Assembly (NCBI GenBank): GCA_026419575.1
Contig: JANZZC010000153.1
Span: 1-33,826 of the forward strand
Direction of reading: 5' to 3'
Length of the DNA: 33,826 nucleotides
Source of the DNA: Thermomicrobium sp.
GTDB lineage: Bacteria; Chloroflexota; Chloroflexia; Thermomicrobiales; Thermomicrobiaceae
The first letter of the stretch is position 1. Each line of letters begins with the position of its first letter. Below the pieces are notes generated by a model that saw nothing but the letters and a program-made list of their open reading frames with translations, was not told the origin of the DNA and made no database searches. This document shows positions 9,912 through 15,002 of the stretch, one piece after another. Position numbers and translations under genes: made by a program.

Positions 9912-10598
9912 GTGTCGAGTCCGGCTCGAATTGGTCGGCAGGCGGTGCTTCGGGCCATCGAGCTCTTCTATGGTCCGCTCGCTCCCCTCTACCCGCTGCT
10001 GACCCGGCTGTTGTTCGGCTCCGAGTGGCACGAGTGGAGACGGAGCGTCGAGCCGTGGATCGACGGAGCGGACCTCGTCGCGGACATCGGCTGCGGCCCC
10101 GCCGAACTCGCTGCCGAGCTCGCCGACGAGGGTCGACGCGTCATCGCGATCGATCGTTCTCCCGCGATGCTCCGTGTCGCACGTCGTCACACTGGTCGCC
10201 GCGCTCGCGGAGGGCGTCTCTGGCTGCTCTGCGCGGACGCCCGAGTTCTGCCGCTGCGCGATCGCACGCTCGACGCGGTCGTGATGACGTACCCGACAGC
10301 GGTGTTCCTCGACGCATCGACGCACAGCGAGATCGCGCGCGTCCTCCGGCCGGACGGCGTCTTCGTCGCCGTCGTCGGAGTCCGACCGAAACGATGGCCG
10401 CTCTGGCTGCGACCGTGCGTCCCGCTGCTGCGCCGCATCGTGTCGCTCGACCCCGCCGATCCCGCGAGCGCCTGGCTGGTCCCACCGACCCCAGGCTTCG
10501 TTTCCGGCGACTGGATCCGATACGAGCATCCGACGGGTACGCTGCTGCTCTGGCTGGCACGCGCAGCGGGAAGCTCGGGCGACGGTCACTCCCAGTGA
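9912..10598 (+). CDS. SAM-dependent methyltransferase (class I), function unknown
   Basis: About 228 residues with a Methyltransf_11/25-type Rossmann core: motif I LVADIGCGPAELAAELA, then VIAIDRSPAMLRVAR, the acidic LLCADARVLPLRDRTLDAVV and the motif-IV region ARVLRPDGVFVAVVG. The N-terminus has FYGPLAPLYPLLTRLLFG, similar to membrane-proximal or ubiquinone/menaquinone-type methyltransferases, but that is not decisive. The GTG at 9912 is chosen because GGAG lies 7 bases before it; an ATG at 9888 is possible. The gene diverges from tgt and its last 13 bases overlap the end of the convergent TatA-type gene. Substrate cannot be named. Confidence 0.75.
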   Translation: MSSPARIGRQAVLRAIELFYGPLAPLYPLLTRLLFGSEWHEWRRSVEPWIDGADLVADIGCGPAELAAELADEGRRVIAIDRSPAMLRVARRHTGRRARGGRLWLLCADARVLPLRDRTLDAVVMTYPTAVFLDASTHSEIARVLRPDGVFVAVVGVRPKRWPLWLRPCVPLLRRIVSLDPADPASAWLVPPTPGFVSGDWIRYEHPTGTLLLWLARAAGSSGDGHSQ

Positions 10599-11113
10599 CC
10601 GTCGCTGCTCGCCGGTGCGCTGGTCTTCGGGCTGCCCGGCGACTCGAGGAGATTCTCCAGATCGACGAGATCGGCGAGGGGATCGTCCTTCGTCGCCTCC
10701 CGCCTGCCGTTCCCGCTCGGAGACGTAACGGGCATCTCGGTCGCTACCGAGGTGGCCGCTCGCGTGGCGGCGGAGCTTGCGCCGGGATCCTTCGGCGTCG
10801 TCGCCGGTGCCAGGGCTTGATCGGCTCGTACCGTCTGCGCCACTTCCTGCGTCGCTGAGGCGATTTCCCCGAGCGCTGCACGCGTCTCGTCTTGAACCGC
10901 GAGCACGGACGCCGTCACTTCCGCTGTACTGGCCTGAACCTCGCGGAACGCCTGCTCGAACTCGCTCGTCAGCTCGCGGGTTGCGGCACGGAACTCGCGC
11001 ACCGCACGGCCGATACCCTGGGCGATTTCCGGGAGTTTGCCAGGGCCGAACAGAATGAGTGCGAGCATCATGATCACCAGGATCTCGGGGATGCCCATTC
11101 CGAAGAAGTCCAT
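10586..11113 (-). CDS. Twin-arginine translocase TatA/TatB-type protein with long C-terminal tail
   Basis: Sec-independent export component. Residues 1-25 hold the short N-terminal helix (MDFFGMGIPEILVIMMLALILFG), then the hinge FGPGKLPEIAQGIG and the amphipathic helix AVREFRAATRELTSEFEQAF. The FGPGKLPE hinge is TatA-like, while the 175-residue length and coiled, Ala/Thr/Glu-rich tail are more like TatB. The tail (about 60-175) has two parts: a helical stretch of ASTAEVTAS/ATQEVAQT type and a disordered Pro/Ser/Thr end. The ATG at 11113 has GGGAG 6 bases upstream. The glycosyltransferase gene diverges from it. A second, 60-residue TatA is at 28876-29058. tatC is not in the window. Confidence 0.85.
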   Translation of the reverse strand: MDFFGMGIPEILVIMMLALILFGPGKLPEIAQGIGRAVREFRAATRELTSEFEQAFREVQASTAEVTASVLAVQDETRAALGEIASATQEVAQTVRADQALAPATTPKDPGASSAATRAATSVATEMPVTSPSGNGRREATKDDPLADLVDLENLLESPGSPKTSAPASSDGHWE

Positions 11114-11184
11114 AGCGCTCCCTCGTCGTTCGGCGGTGCCGTCGAGCCGACCTTCCCGTCGGAAGCATCGAGCCTCGCCTAGCA

Positions 11185-11192
11185 AGTATAAC
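11185..11192. promoter_or_regulatory. Overlapping divergent -10 elements
   Basis: AGTATAAC reads TATAAC (11187-11192) on the plus strand toward the glycosyltransferase (ATG 11217) and TATACT (11190-11185) on the minus strand toward the TatA-type gene (ATG 11113). No strong -35 box is visible for either. Overlap means polymerase could use only one at a time. Confidence 0.45.
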
Positions 11193-11216
11193 CCTGTGAG
11201 TGACGAGGAGGGCGGC

Positions 11217-12344
11217 ATGCGGCCCACCACGATCGTGCTCGACGGCAGGATTCTCGCCTACCGGCGTGGCGGGATCGCTCGTTACGTCGAGTGCTTGGCT
11301 CGATCCATCGCCGAATGCCGTGATATCGATGGAGACGCACTGGAGTGCAAGCTTTTGACCAATCGTCCGCTCCCTTCGTCGCCTCTCCCGACGATCCGCT
11401 GCCTGACTCCCCCGCACCATCGTTTCGAGGTCTGGACGCTCGCTATCGAGCTCGCTCGGCGACGACCGTCGCTCTTCCACGCGACCGATTTCGTGCTTCC
11501 CGTACTGCCGCGTTCCGTGCGTGGTATCGTGACCATACACGATCTCGCTTTCCTCGATGCTCCGCACGAACTCGCGCCCGAGGCGTATCGCTACTACGTG
11601 AGGACCTTGTCGCGCGCTCGCAAGGCGGATCGGGTGATCGCGGATTCTCGGGCGACGGCAGCGAAGATCGTCGAGCGCTGCCCGGAACTCATGGACCGCG
11701 TGCGTGTGGTGCACCTCGGTGTCGATCGTCGATGGTTCGCTTTTCCTCCAGGGGCCGACGAGATACTGACGGAACGCCTCGGAGACCTCGCCACGCGTCC
11801 GCTCGTGCTCGCTGTCGGGACCGTCGAGCCACGCAAGCGCTACGATCTGCTTCTCGACACCTTCCGCTTGCTGCGCGAAGAGCTGGGTGGAGAACCGTTC
11901 TTGGTCGTCGTCGGGCAGCGCGGCTGGCGAGCGGAGGCGACCGCGGCGCGCCTTCGTCGGGAAGAGGCCAAAGGGACGCTGCGCTGGCTCGAGGACGCCG
12001 ACGATGCGGTGCTGCAAGCCCTGTATTCCCGCAGTTCGCTCCTGGTCGTCGCCAGCCGGGACGAGGGGTTCTGTCTCCCGGCGCTGGAGGCGCTCGCTGC
12101 TGGCCTGCCCGTGGTAGCCTTCGCGGTCGGGGCGCTGCCGGAAGTGCTCGGAGACGCGGCCCTCCTCGTGACCGAAGAAACACCGGAGGCGCTCGCGACG
12201 GCGTGCGTCCAGGTGCTTCGGGATGCGCACCTCCGGCAGCAGCTGAGTGCTCGGGGCAGGGTACGTGCGCAGCAGTTCTCGTGGGAGAAGACTGCCCGGG
12301 AGACGCTCCGCGTGTACCGGGAGGTACTGCAGGATGGCTTCTGA
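11217..12344 (+). CDS. GT4-family glycosyltransferase
   Basis: 375-residue GT-B fold enzyme of the family that uses nucleotide-sugar donors with retention of configuration. The N-terminal acceptor domain begins TTIVLDGRILAYRRGGIARYVE, a typical start for mannosyl/rhamnosyl transferases, with a conserved VTIHDLAFLDAP. The donor domain has LVLAVGTVEPRKRYDLLLDTF, LVVVGQRGW, and the EGFCLPALEALAAGLPVVAF segment carrying the E-x7-E pair. The ATG at 11217 follows GAGGAGG by 5 bases. It overlaps pth by 11 bases, so the two share a transcript. The sugar and acceptor are unknown. UDP-glucuronate from the dehydrogenase at 7001-8299 would be one possible donor, but that link is a guess. Confidence 0.85.
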   Translation: MRPTTIVLDGRILAYRRGGIARYVECLARSIAECRDIDGDALECKLLTNRPLPSSPLPTIRCLTPPHHRFEVWTLAIELARRRPSLFHATDFVLPVLPRSVRGIVTIHDLAFLDAPHELAPEAYRYYVRTLSRARKADRVIADSRATAAKIVERCPELMDRVRVVHLGVDRRWFAFPPGADEILTERLGDLATRPLVLAVGTVEPRKRYDLLLDTFRLLREELGGEPFLVVVGQRGWRAEATAARLRREEAKGTLRWLEDADDAVLQALYSRSSLLVVASRDEGFCLPALEALAAGLPVVAFAVGALPEVLGDAALLVTEETPEALATACVQVLRDAHLRQQLSARGRVRAQQFSWEKTARETLRVYREVLQDGF

Positions 12345-12942
12345 CCGTTGGATGATCGTCGGTCTGGGAAATCCCGGGCCACGGTATGCCGAAACGCGGC
12401 ACAACGTCGGCTTCTGGGTGGTCGATCGCGTCGCCGGTCGGCTCGGCATCCAGCGATTCGAACGCCGCTTCGATGGCGAGTTCGCGAGTTACGCCGAGGG
12501 AAGTCGGTCGCTCCTTTTGCTCAAGCCGCTCACCTACATGAACCTCAGCGGGCGGTCGGTGCGTCGAGCAGTGGACTGGTACAAGCTCCCGCTCGAGCGA
12601 CTCCTGGTGGTTCATGACGACATGGATCTCCCGCTCGGCACGCTGCGCTTGCGGCTGGGCGGGAGCTCCGCTGGACATCACGGCGTGGAGTCGATCATCG
12701 CCGAACTCGGAAGCGACCGCTTCGCGCGTCTGCGCATCGGCATCGGGCGACCGCCGGCGCGCGAGCGAGGGCGCTCGTACGTTCTGGAACCGTTTCCGCC
12801 GCACGAGCGTACGCTGGCTGAACGTGTCGCGGAAGTTGCCGCGGAGGCGGCGCTCGTCTGGTACCGTGACGGACTCACCGTCGCGATGAACCGTTTCAAT
12901 GGCATGCGCGTGGGCACGGAAGAGGAGACGCTTGCTCCGTGA
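12334..12942 (+). CDS. pth: Peptidyl-tRNA hydrolase
   Basis: Releases tRNA from peptidyl-tRNA dropped by ribosomes. Residues match bacterial Pth: IVGLGNPGPRYAETRHNVGF (Asn13, catalytic His23), LLKPLTYMNLSG (Asn70), VVHDDMDLPLG (catalytic-support Asp95) and RIGIGRP. At the site that carries Asn in E. coli (Asn114, GGHNG), this protein has His116 within AGHHG. The 202-residue length is normal. The ATG at 12334 has GGGAGG 9 bases upstream and overlaps the glycosyltransferase end; an ATG at 12352 is a fallback. The stop TGA overlaps a GTG that may begin a small ORF (12939-13088). Confidence 0.92.
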   Translation: MASDRWMIVGLGNPGPRYAETRHNVGFWVVDRVAGRLGIQRFERRFDGEFASYAEGSRSLLLLKPLTYMNLSGRSVRRAVDWYKLPLERLLVVHDDMDLPLGTLRLRLGGSSAGHHGVESIIAELGSDRFARLRIGIGRPPARERGRSYVLEPFPPHERTLAERVAEVAAEAALVWYRDGLTVAMNRFNGMRVGTEEETLAP

Positions 12943-13088
12943 CGGCTCCGCTAGGGACAATTGCGACGGAGTCCGAGATCCTGGCGCGTACCGGGAAGTT
13001 CCTGGCGTGGTGCCTGGAGCGGAGCGAGGCGAAAGTGGAGGAAATCGCATGGCGATCGATCAGGGACAGAATCAGCGCGGTTATTTGA
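12939..13088 (+). CDS. Possible 49-residue ORF coupled to pth
   Basis: A GTG at 12939 overlaps the pth stop as GTGA and opens a frame of 49 codons ending at TGA 13086-13088. AGGAG lies 11 bases upstream inside pth, which is a long but usable spacing. The product begins MTAPLGTIATESEILAR and continues with an amphipathic, Glu/Arg/Trp-containing helix such as EAKVEEIAWRSIRD. About three quarters of third codon positions are G or C, as expected for coding DNA here. It overlaps the start of the CobO-like gene by 40 bases in another frame, which counts against it. No family is recognised. Without it, 12943-13048 would be a 106-base gap inside a tight operon. Confidence 0.33.
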   Translation: MTAPLGTIATESEILARTGKFLAWCLERSEAKVEEIAWRSIRDRISAVI

Positions 13089-13594
13089 TGCTCCTCGTCG
13101 GCGACGAACGCCGGACCTCCGACGCCGCACTCGGTATCGCTTTGCGAGGAGCCGGGCACGGTTTGCGCGTGCACATCATCGAGTTCCTGAAGACGGGTCG
13201 TGAACGCGGAGAGGTCGCGGCCGTCTCCTTTCTGACCGGCGTCACGCTGTCTCAGTACGGGATGATCGACATCCGAACGCGTCCGGAAGAGTTGCGTGGC
13301 CCGGCGATCTCGCCGGAGCGGCTGCAGGCCGCTTTGCGCGAAGCGCGGCAACATGTCCAGTTCCGTGTCACCAACATCCTGATCTTGGACGGACTCCTGA
13401 CGCTCGTCGACGAAGGTATGGTCGAGGACCGCACGATCTTGGAAATCGTCGAAGGCGCAGCAGCCTGGACGGACATTGTGCTCACTGGACGCGCAGCGAC
13501 ACCGGCGTTGCAGGATGCCGCCGACAGCGTAACGCTCATGCAGACGATCAAGGTGCGGGAGCACGAACCGCTCCGGCGCGGGCTGCATTACTGA
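13049..13594 (+). CDS. CobO/BtuR-like protein lacking Walker motifs (probable pseudo-adenosyltransferase)
   Basis: 181 residues with the overall fold signature of CobO/BtuR corrinoid adenosyltransferases: AALGIALRGAGHGLRVHIIEFLK after the first strand, TNILILDGLLTLVDEGMV, the TDIVLTGRAATPALQDAADSVTLMQTIK segment and a terminal RRGLHY. The ATP-binding features are gone: the family GxGKGKT/S loop is replaced by VGDERRTSDA (residues 17-26), the Walker B LDE is LDG (113-115), and the GxGFTW corrinoid loop is not recognisable. Neighbouring motifs keep the frame and no frame change restores a P-loop, so this is divergence, not a sequencing slip. The ATG at 13049 has GGAGG 7 bases upstream. The next two genes encode a B12-binding mutase module and a MeaB-type GTPase, so a corrinoid-handling role is likely, but adenosyl transfer from ATP is not. 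Confidence 0.75.
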   Translation: MAIDQGQNQRGYLMLLVGDERRTSDAALGIALRGAGHGLRVHIIEFLKTGRERGEVAAVSFLTGVTLSQYGMIDIRTRPEELRGPAISPERLQAALREARQHVQFRVTNILILDGLLTLVDEGMVEDRTILEIVEGAAAWTDIVLTGRAATPALQDAADSVTLMQTIKVREHEPLRRGLHY

Positions 13595-13615: not shown

Positions 13616-14035
13616 ATGGACGATCGACGGATCCGTGTACTGATCGCGAAGCCCGGGTTGGACGGTCACGATCGCGGGGCCAAGGTGCTCGCGAGGGCAT
13701 TGCGTGACGCGGGAATGGAGGTTATCTACACCGGGCTCTTCCAAACCCCCGAATCGATCGCCTGCACGGCTGCGGACGAAGACGTCGACGTCGTCGGACT
13801 CAGCATCCTTTCGGGCGCGCACAACCAGCTCGTGCCAGAGGTCATCGAAGCGCTCCGCGCTGTCGGAAAGGGCGATGTGTTGATTCTGGTCGGCGGGATC
13901 ATTCCGCAAGAAGATATTCCCTACCTCGAGCAACGCGGCGTCCATGCCGTGTTCGGCCCTGGGACCCCGCTCTCGACCATCGTCGACTACATCAGAACGA
14001 ACGTCGAACCCCGATTGTCGCAGGCGAGCCGGTGA
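13616..14035 (+). CDS. Stand-alone B12-binding subunit of a methylmalonyl-CoA-type mutase
   Basis: 139-residue cobalamin-binding Rossmann domain equivalent to the C-terminal part of methylmalonyl-CoA mutase. The base-off/His-on signature is intact: [20 protein letters not shown] with DxHxxG at residues 16-21 and cobalt ligand His18, then [12 protein letters not shown] and [20 protein letters not shown]. As a free subunit it should pair with a separate substrate-binding chain (McmA or HcmA type), which is not in the window. The ATG at 13616 is 10 bases after GGAGG. It lies 21 bases after the CobO-like gene and 1 base before the GTPase gene. Methylmalonyl-CoA, isobutyryl-CoA, ethylmalonyl-CoA and 2-hydroxyisobutyryl-CoA mutase small subunits look alike at this level, so the substrate is open. 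Confidence 0.88.
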
Positions 14036-14036
14036 G

Positions 14037-15002
14037 ATGCAGCAGGAGACGCTATTGGCCGATTTGCTCGAGCGCGTGCGCGCTGGCGATCGAGGCGCGC
14101 TGGCACGTGCTTTTTCGCTTCTGGAGCGCGCGCCGGAACTGTGGCGCTGGGAGAGCGAGGGTAATGCAGCCGGCTCTTTCGTGGTCGCGGTTGCGGGGCC
14201 GCCGGGAGCTGGGAAGAGTACGCTGCTCGGAGCGATCGCGCGCGCTTTGAGTTCCAGGGATATGTCGTGCGGGATCGTGGCGTTCGACCCCGCCAGCCCC
14301 AGGTCCGGCGGTGCCCTCCTCGGCGACCGCATCCGCATGCTCGATGCCGCTGCGCTTCCCAACGTCTTCGTCCGTTCTGTCGCTGCCCGCGATCCGGTCG
14401 GTCCCGGAACCGCGGCGCTTCCGGTGCTCCTCGCGCTCCTGGAGCTGTACGGCTTCGATTTCGTCTTTCTCGAATCGGTCGGGGCCGGGCAGGAGGCGAC
14501 GCCGCTCCTCGCTCTGGCGGATTCCGTCCTGCTGGTCTCGGCGCCCGGACTCGGGGACAGCGTCCAGATCCTCAAGGCCGGCGTTCTCGAGCTGGCCGAC
14601 ATCGTCATCGTGAACAAGGCCGACCGATCAGGTGCGGACGAACTCGCGCGCGAACTGACCGCCTACTTCCGCTTGGTAGCAGCCCCGACCGAGGAGCCCA
14701 CGACCGTCCTCCGTACGGTCGCGACCGAGGAGCGAGGAATCGAGGACGTGCTCGAGGCGCTCGCTGCGCGTCGCGAACGAGCGCTGCGAACACGCATGCT
14801 CCGAACTCGTCGACGGTCTCGGCTCGTCCGCTTTCTCCAGGCCCGACTGCGGGAACGCTGCCTTCGGGCCATCGACGACCTTGTGGCGGAACTCCTCCAC
14901 GACGATTCCGATGGCGTGGCAACTCCGGTCACCGAGGGAGCACTGCTCCGAATGGTCGTTCAGCGTCTCGCGTCCTGGCTCGACGACGAGGCGGCCCGCT
15001 GA
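14037..15002 (+). CDS. meaB: MeaB/ArgK-family GTPase, mutase chaperone
   Basis: G3E-family P-loop GTPase that loads adenosylcobalamin into acyl-CoA mutases and guards against inactivation. Visible motifs: GPPGAGKST at residues 54-62, the DPASPRSGGALLGDRIRM loop (84-101), LESVGAGQEA in the switch region (family: ETVGVGQSE), APGLGDSVQILKAGVLELADI and NKAD (183-186). Length of 321 residues is close to the usual 320-340. The switch differs by GAGQEA instead of GVGQSE. The ATG at 14037 lies 1 base after the stop of the B12-binding gene, so the two are translationally linked. The 3' end overlaps the convergent larB by 43 bases. The large mutase subunit must be encoded elsewhere. Confidence 0.88.
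   Translation: MQQETLLADLLERVRAGDRGALARAFSLLERAPELWRWESEGNAAGSFVVAVAGPPGAGKSTLLGAIARALSSRDMSCGIVAFDPASPRSGGALLGDRIRMLDAAALPNVFVRSVAARDPVGPGTAALPVLLALLELYGFDFVFLESVGAGQEATPLLALADSVLLVSAPGLGDSVQILKAGVLELADIVIVNKADRSGADELARELTAYFRLVAAPTEEPTTVLRTVATEERGIEDVLEALAARRERALRTRMLRTRRRSRLVRFLQARLRERCLRAIDDLVAELLHDDSDGVATPVTEGALLRMVVQRLASWLDDEAAR

Follow-up and report, generated by a model that had tools for sequence, protein, structure and literature searches.

Getting a 1.6 kDa cofactor into B12-dependent mutases without losing it, and telling its delivery apart from its synthesis, are problems for which most work has been done with the human and Methylorubrum proteins. The human adenosyltransferase (ATR) MMAB makes adenosylcobalamin (AdoCbl) and hands it to a mutase that is held open by MMAA/MeaB, and cob(II)alamin returns for repair (PMC10356863, PMC9974510). 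Human ATR is both a catalyst and an AdoCbl escort, and patient mutations of MMAB can affect the two roles separately (PMC8633584). The mutase is opened by MeaB, which does not itself bind cobalamin (PMC9974510).

CobO, PduO and MeaB are already known. The protein described here, which we call pseudo-CobO, is encoded in a window of 33,826 nucleotides from Thermomicrobium sp. (the whole stretch of DNA that was analyzed), and its features and neighbors are listed in Table 1. PduO-type ATRs such as human MMAB (PF01923) offer a parallel in role, being partners of MeaB/MMAA and the mutase with a separable AdoCbl escort function, but they are catalytically active, their fold is unrelated to that of pseudo-CobO, and the family that carries pseudo-CobO has its own separate PduO. 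MeaB/MMAA, encoded directly downstream together with mcmB, would belong to the same cofactor-loading system and, unlike pseudo-CobO, is a GTPase with intact motifs. Salmonella CobA (PF02572; 1g64, 4hut) is alike in length and in fold (TM-score 0.73 to 1g64 chain B), while pseudo-CobO differs from it in having no P-loop, LDG in place of LDE, no GFTW motif and 19-20% identity in the structural match. The core motifs common to CobO, CobA, BtuR and pseudo-CobO are GE, the Asp of LDE, GR...AD.VT.M...K and the C-terminal RRG(I/L)xY, but unlike the other three, pseudo-CobO sits in the mutase operon of genomes without CobQ.

Table 1. Features of the pseudo-CobO locus in the window.
Feature	Position	Strand	Basis or remarks
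pth (peptidyl-tRNA hydrolase), conserved upstream flank, outside the function	12247..12942	+	precedes mcmB-meaB at almost every locus examined in the order
Ribosome binding site GGAGG	13037..13041	+	upstream sequence; 7 nt before ATG 13049
Pseudo-CobO, CobO/BtuR-family protein without P-loop	13049..13594	+	181 aa; PF02572, orthologs, CobA fold matches
Former P-loop, residues 18-27, GDERRTSDAA for GxGKGKTTAA	13100..13129	+	family alignments
Former LDE site, residues 113-115, LDG	13385..13393	+	Asp114 kept, Glu replaced by Gly115
C-terminal RRGLHY, counterpart of CobO tail ARRGIEY/AQRGIEF	13574..13591	+	R176, R177, G178, H180 and Y181 family-invariant
mcmB, separate cobalamin-binding subunit of split acyl-CoA/methylmalonyl-CoA mutase, DGHDRG	13616..14035	+	TIGR00640 187 bits, PF02310
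meaB, mutase G-protein chaperone	14037..15002	+	PF03308 186 bits; GTPase motifs kept

The translated frame of pseudo-CobO holds zero internal stops, and every motif quoted for it in the initial annotation (VGDERRTSDA, HGLRVHIIEFLK, LDG, DIVLTGR, DAADSVTLM and RRGLHY) was found in the 181-aa translation. Its membership in the CobO/BtuR fold is far above chance. The PF02572 (CobA_CobO_BtuR) profile scores 106 bits over residues 10-170 (cut-off 25.7, E 3e-30), among PDB sequences Salmonella CobA alone gives matches with meaningful E-values, and the top four PDB fold matches of the AlphaFold2 model (pLDDT 82) are all CobA (1g64/1g5r/4hut; TM-score ~0.73, best E 2.6e-10). The scaffold is therefore kept, as had been proposed. 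The former P-loop is helical in the model; we draw no conclusion from this, since in a control prediction an intact CobO, modeled on the same shallow alignment, also came out helical there. Against the NCBIfam CobO models, pseudo-CobO stays below the cut-off, with 81.1 vs. 185 for NF004637 and 73.9 vs. 167.75 for TIGR00708. By the defining features tested, i.e., P-loop, LDE and NCBIfam score, it fails as a functional CobO, and it is a probable pseudoenzyme.

Among the residues that define the loop, only the first Gly is kept in GDERRTSDAA, and no nucleotide site is recognizable in the protein. The pattern G-x-E-R-x-T-[SA]-[DE]-A-A is found in 14/14 aligned family members. At the second site, D114 and G115 are invariant across the family, which reads LDG or MDG where intact CobOs read LDE or MDE. 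The earlier claim that both Walker motifs are lost thus stands for Walker A, but not in full for the second site, where the Asp is invariant and just the Glu has become Gly. Outside the ATP site, CobO-like invariant residues are retained (G54-E55, D114, A158-D159, K168 and the RRG.HY tail). The claim that the protein cannot transfer adenosyl from ATP is upheld in a softer form, namely that use of MgATP in the manner of CobO is unlikely. The GFTW motif of CobA, with Phe91 and Trp93, which we take to be the aromatic residues that displace the lower ligand, has no counterpart in pseudo-CobO, and the region is variable. However, the intact mutase-operon CobOs of loci L104-L107 are likewise without GFTW, so its absence is weak evidence on adenosyltransferase status.

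Pseudo-CobO was found in 17 of the 21 genomes of the family that were sampled, the window's own included, with one copy in each and across five genera (Thermomicrobium, Thermalbibacter, Sphaerobacter and others). The copy in the window shares 57-97% identity with the others. The alignment of these orthologs shows that the P-loop loss is conserved and fixed in the whole family, and not private to one genome. Pairwise dN/dS among near relatives is ~0.02-0.09, a rough estimate as many dS values exceed 1, and together with the lack of internal stops this confirms an intact gene under strong purifying constraint. A pseudogene or sequencing error as the origin of pseudo-CobO is ruled out by its presence in 17 genomes and by the dN/dS. 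When the family's most distant genera are compared, identity is 87% in the former P-loop, 92% in the next helix, 90% in residues 51-71 and 83% in residues 107-120, whereas it is 25% in residues 72-88, which align with the GFTW (Phe91/Trp93) segment of CobA. Because the former P-loop and its helix rank among the best conserved segments, a site is being maintained, which makes decay unlikely. Such conservation is not what a decaying site would show, and the former P-loop probably serves as a new functional surface. The loss of the P-loop is old and selected.

The stop codon of pseudo-CobO lies 21 bp from the start of mcmB, a gap which suggests that the two genes are on one transcript. The following meaB carries GPPGAGKS, DPAS, GGALLGD, ESVGAGQ, PGLGDSVQILK and NKAD. 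Both mcmB and meaB occur in 18 family genomes, and in 17 of these pseudo-CobO immediately precedes mcmB or mcmA; the contig of the eighteenth (G015) starts within mcmA. The remaining three genomes, 62-78% complete, have neither mcmB nor meaB. The position beside mutase cofactor genes that had been pointed out for the window therefore recurs, as an mcmB-meaB cluster, in all 17 genomes carrying pseudo-CobO. The gene order in Sphaerobacter is pseudo-CobO/mcmA/mcmB/meaB, while mcmA of the window's genome is elsewhere (contig C170) and keeps RQYAG and PSMR, the usual methylmalonyl-CoA mutase motifs. Sister families of the order have pth/3-hydroxyacyl-CoA dehydrogenase/(mcmA)/mcmB/meaB in the same region, where the dehydrogenase is named from sequence without a profile; this gene is missing in the Thermomicrobium region. 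No CobO-like gene was found between pth and the mutase genes in the sister-family loci. A hidden, diverged CobO in this gap was considered and rejected, as the readable gaps hold the dehydrogenase and nothing in them scores CobO-like. Since the sister families have both the mutase and MeaB without a pseudo-CobO gene, pseudo-CobO is not essential to the mutase/MeaB system as such.

Further observations concern the surrounding genes. MeaB of the window's genus (14037-15002 in the window) is more divergent than in most relatives, with 186-217 bits to PF03308 vs. 260-302, and its GTPase motifs are kept. The mutase large subunit beside pseudo-CobO in Sphaerobacter (L028 10093-11639, L027 4591-6138) has RMFSG for RQYAG and PSMS or PSMK for PSMR, and because these substrate-site motifs differ, the mutase of that cluster may isomerize another acyl-CoA. 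A second, ordinary mcmA is found elsewhere in that Sphaerobacter genome. In one genome of a sister family, the meaB match (G028:C16:32264-32836, in L149) has an in-frame TGA, possibly a frameshift or an assembly error. Upstream in the window, positions 10586-11230 encode a TatA-like protein (FGMGIPEILVIMMLALILFGPGKLPEIAQGIG) whose C-terminal extension is long.

With a profile of the family we searched 400 genomes of the phylum as well as the GTDB contig collection, and 60 neighborhoods were fetched and read with the other loci. Apart from those of the family, 73 distinct CobO proteins were sampled in the phylum, and the P-loop is intact in every one. Five other Chloroflexota loci (L104, L106, L107, L163 and L205) have an intact CobO adjoining mutase genes; in four its neighbor is mcmA or mcmB, and in one the order is CobO-mcmB-meaB. 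The latter, L163 (1697-7909), reads biotin carboxylase/biotin carrier/mcmA/methylmalonyl-CoA epimerase/CobO/mcmB/meaB, with the carboxylase, carrier and epimerase named from sequence without a profile. The mutase-operon CobOs resemble pseudo-CobO in family and gene neighborhood, and those of L104, L106, L107 and L163 have GLRVHI after helix 1 as pseudo-CobO does, but they differ in their intact GxGKGKT and LDE and in that PduO is absent from four of the five genomes. The L163 genome is among these four, two of which have a second CobO elsewhere. Because PduO is absent there, the mutase-linked intact CobO is presumably the working AdoCbl source in these genomes. The initial annotation had named orthologs at this gene position whose P-loop is whole as a finding that would speak against its reading. 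The outcome is mixed: no ortholog within the family has a P-loop, and a CobO that has one occupies the corresponding local order outside it, in the distant family of L163. This intact CobO in the same gene order points to pseudo-CobO as a former adenosyltransferase of a mutase operon that lost catalysis, and does not rescue catalysis in the Thermomicrobium protein.

A tree of 86 proteins groups the degenerate CobOs in a single clade (100/100), whose stem measures 2.31 changes per column. Descent of pseudo-CobO from a CobO-type ATP:corrinoid adenosyltransferase is part of the explanation we prefer. No single lineage of intact CobOs stands out as its source, as the stem is long, the bootstrap trees split the attachment of the clade between single relatives (L181, L108/L109), and an AU test did not reject its grouping with L163 (p 0.284).

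The source of AdoCbl in these bacteria is likely independent of pseudo-CobO. A second PF02572 protein was not found in the genomes carrying pseudo-CobO. A PduO-type enzyme is present in 29 of the 31 genomes of the order that were searched, and that of the window's genome keeps its LPG and RRAER motifs; the adenosyl chemistry is thus likely left to this separate enzyme. CobQ was not found over its cut-off in the family genomes, and the bacteria therefore probably salvage corrinoids, which makes a role for pseudo-CobO in de novo B12 synthesis unlikely. CobQ and an intact CobO occur together in 2/2 genomes searched of another family (f4).

The retained fold and most of the core, together with a new loop that is conserved and has two arginines in most members, could be read as an adenosyltransferase that is still active and holds ATP or another adenosyl donor via the remodeled loop. 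We consider this improbable. The P-loop has lost its lysine, its Thr/Ser and every glycine but the first, position 25 is acidic, and all members have Gly for the Glu of LDE. The NCBIfam CobO models score the protein far under their cut-offs (81 vs. 185 and 74 vs. 168 bits), and a PduO with its active-site motifs is present. There is similarly little probability that pseudo-CobO serves another pathway and is found in the mutase cluster through inherited gene order alone. Although the region also carries pth and the 3-hydroxyacyl-CoA dehydrogenase, neither of which belongs to the mutase, pseudo-CobO stays beside mcmB or mcmA even where its neighbors change, with mcmA in the cluster in Sphaerobacter and the dehydrogenase out of it in Thermomicrobium, and the short gap to mcmB in the window suggests one transcript.

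The main rival is a protein-only adaptor or regulator that binds mcmB and/or MeaB without any corrinoid, e.g., tuning the GTPase or joining the split mutase subunits. The linkage of pseudo-CobO to mcmB-meaB is stricter than to mcmA, which is elsewhere in the window's genome, the segment facing the corrinoid in CobA is not conserved, and the divergent MeaB of the window's genus (186-217 vs. 260-302 bits) would fit co-adaptation. However, the invariant CobO-like residues (G54-E55, D114, A158-D159, K168, RRG.HY) exceed what a bare docking surface would seem to need, and we regard this explanation as possible but rather unlikely.

The reading we prefer, and to which we would give about an even chance, is that pseudo-CobO is a former adenosyltransferase kept as a non-catalytic partner of mcmB and MeaB, in cofactor handling or scaffolding. 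It is favored by the fixed loss of the P-loop, purifying selection, gene linkage, the intact counterpart in the same position and the separate PduO. Against it are the escort precedent, which comes from PduO-type enzymes that are not homologous to CobO, the sister families, whose mutase and MeaB go without this gene, and the source CobO, which is not settled by the tree. The variability of residues 72-88 also speaks somewhat against corrinoid binding, and a simple argument from the corrinoid pocket is weakened because the Phe91/Trp93 segment is among the most variable. In the simplest story, a mutase-linked CobO, perhaps like those that certain Chloroflexota have within the methylmalonyl-CoA mutase operon, would have entered or been kept in the family. 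The ATP site would then have been lost and catalysis left to the PduO-type enzyme, while the CobO scaffold was presumably retained for a second, non-catalytic role with the split-mutase mcmB and MeaB. Pseudo-CobO may bind cobalamin or another corrinoid and may contact mcmB/MeaB directly; the corrinoid escort or MeaB partner of the initial annotation is likewise a putative role, and that interpretation is supported in part. By analogy with MMAB, pseudo-CobO most likely acts at the cofactor loading or repair step, a placement to which we give about an even chance; it would hold cobalamin, or dock the exposed B12 domain, while MeaB wedges the mutase open. This would be the chaperone half of the work of human MMAB, minus the chemistry. 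More tentatively, and with a chance we put a little short of even, the degenerate CobOs may be a dedicated family of cobalamin chaperones of a split B12 mutase, in which the escort role, joined to catalysis in human MMAB, has been split from the chemistry and rests on a pseudoenzyme of an unrelated adenosyltransferase fold.

In the open full texts that were searched, we found no description of a conserved CobO without ATP site in a mutase operon. The Pfam score of pseudo-CobO clears the cut-off by a wide margin, and annotation pipelines would list the gene as an ATP:corrinoid adenosyltransferase, although the likely adenosyltransferase of the genome is PduO; annotations should be read with this in mind. 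A natural, conserved adenosyltransferase without its ATP site, encoded with its presumed partners in a compact operon of a thermophile, would make it possible to test the non-catalytic role alone. A family of hot-spring bacteria keeps a B12-activating enzyme minus its ATP-binding site, clustered with a B12-dependent enzyme and its cofactor-loading helper. This arrangement suggests that the present work of the protein is to assist in cofactor handling, or in assembly of the machinery, without making the cofactor.
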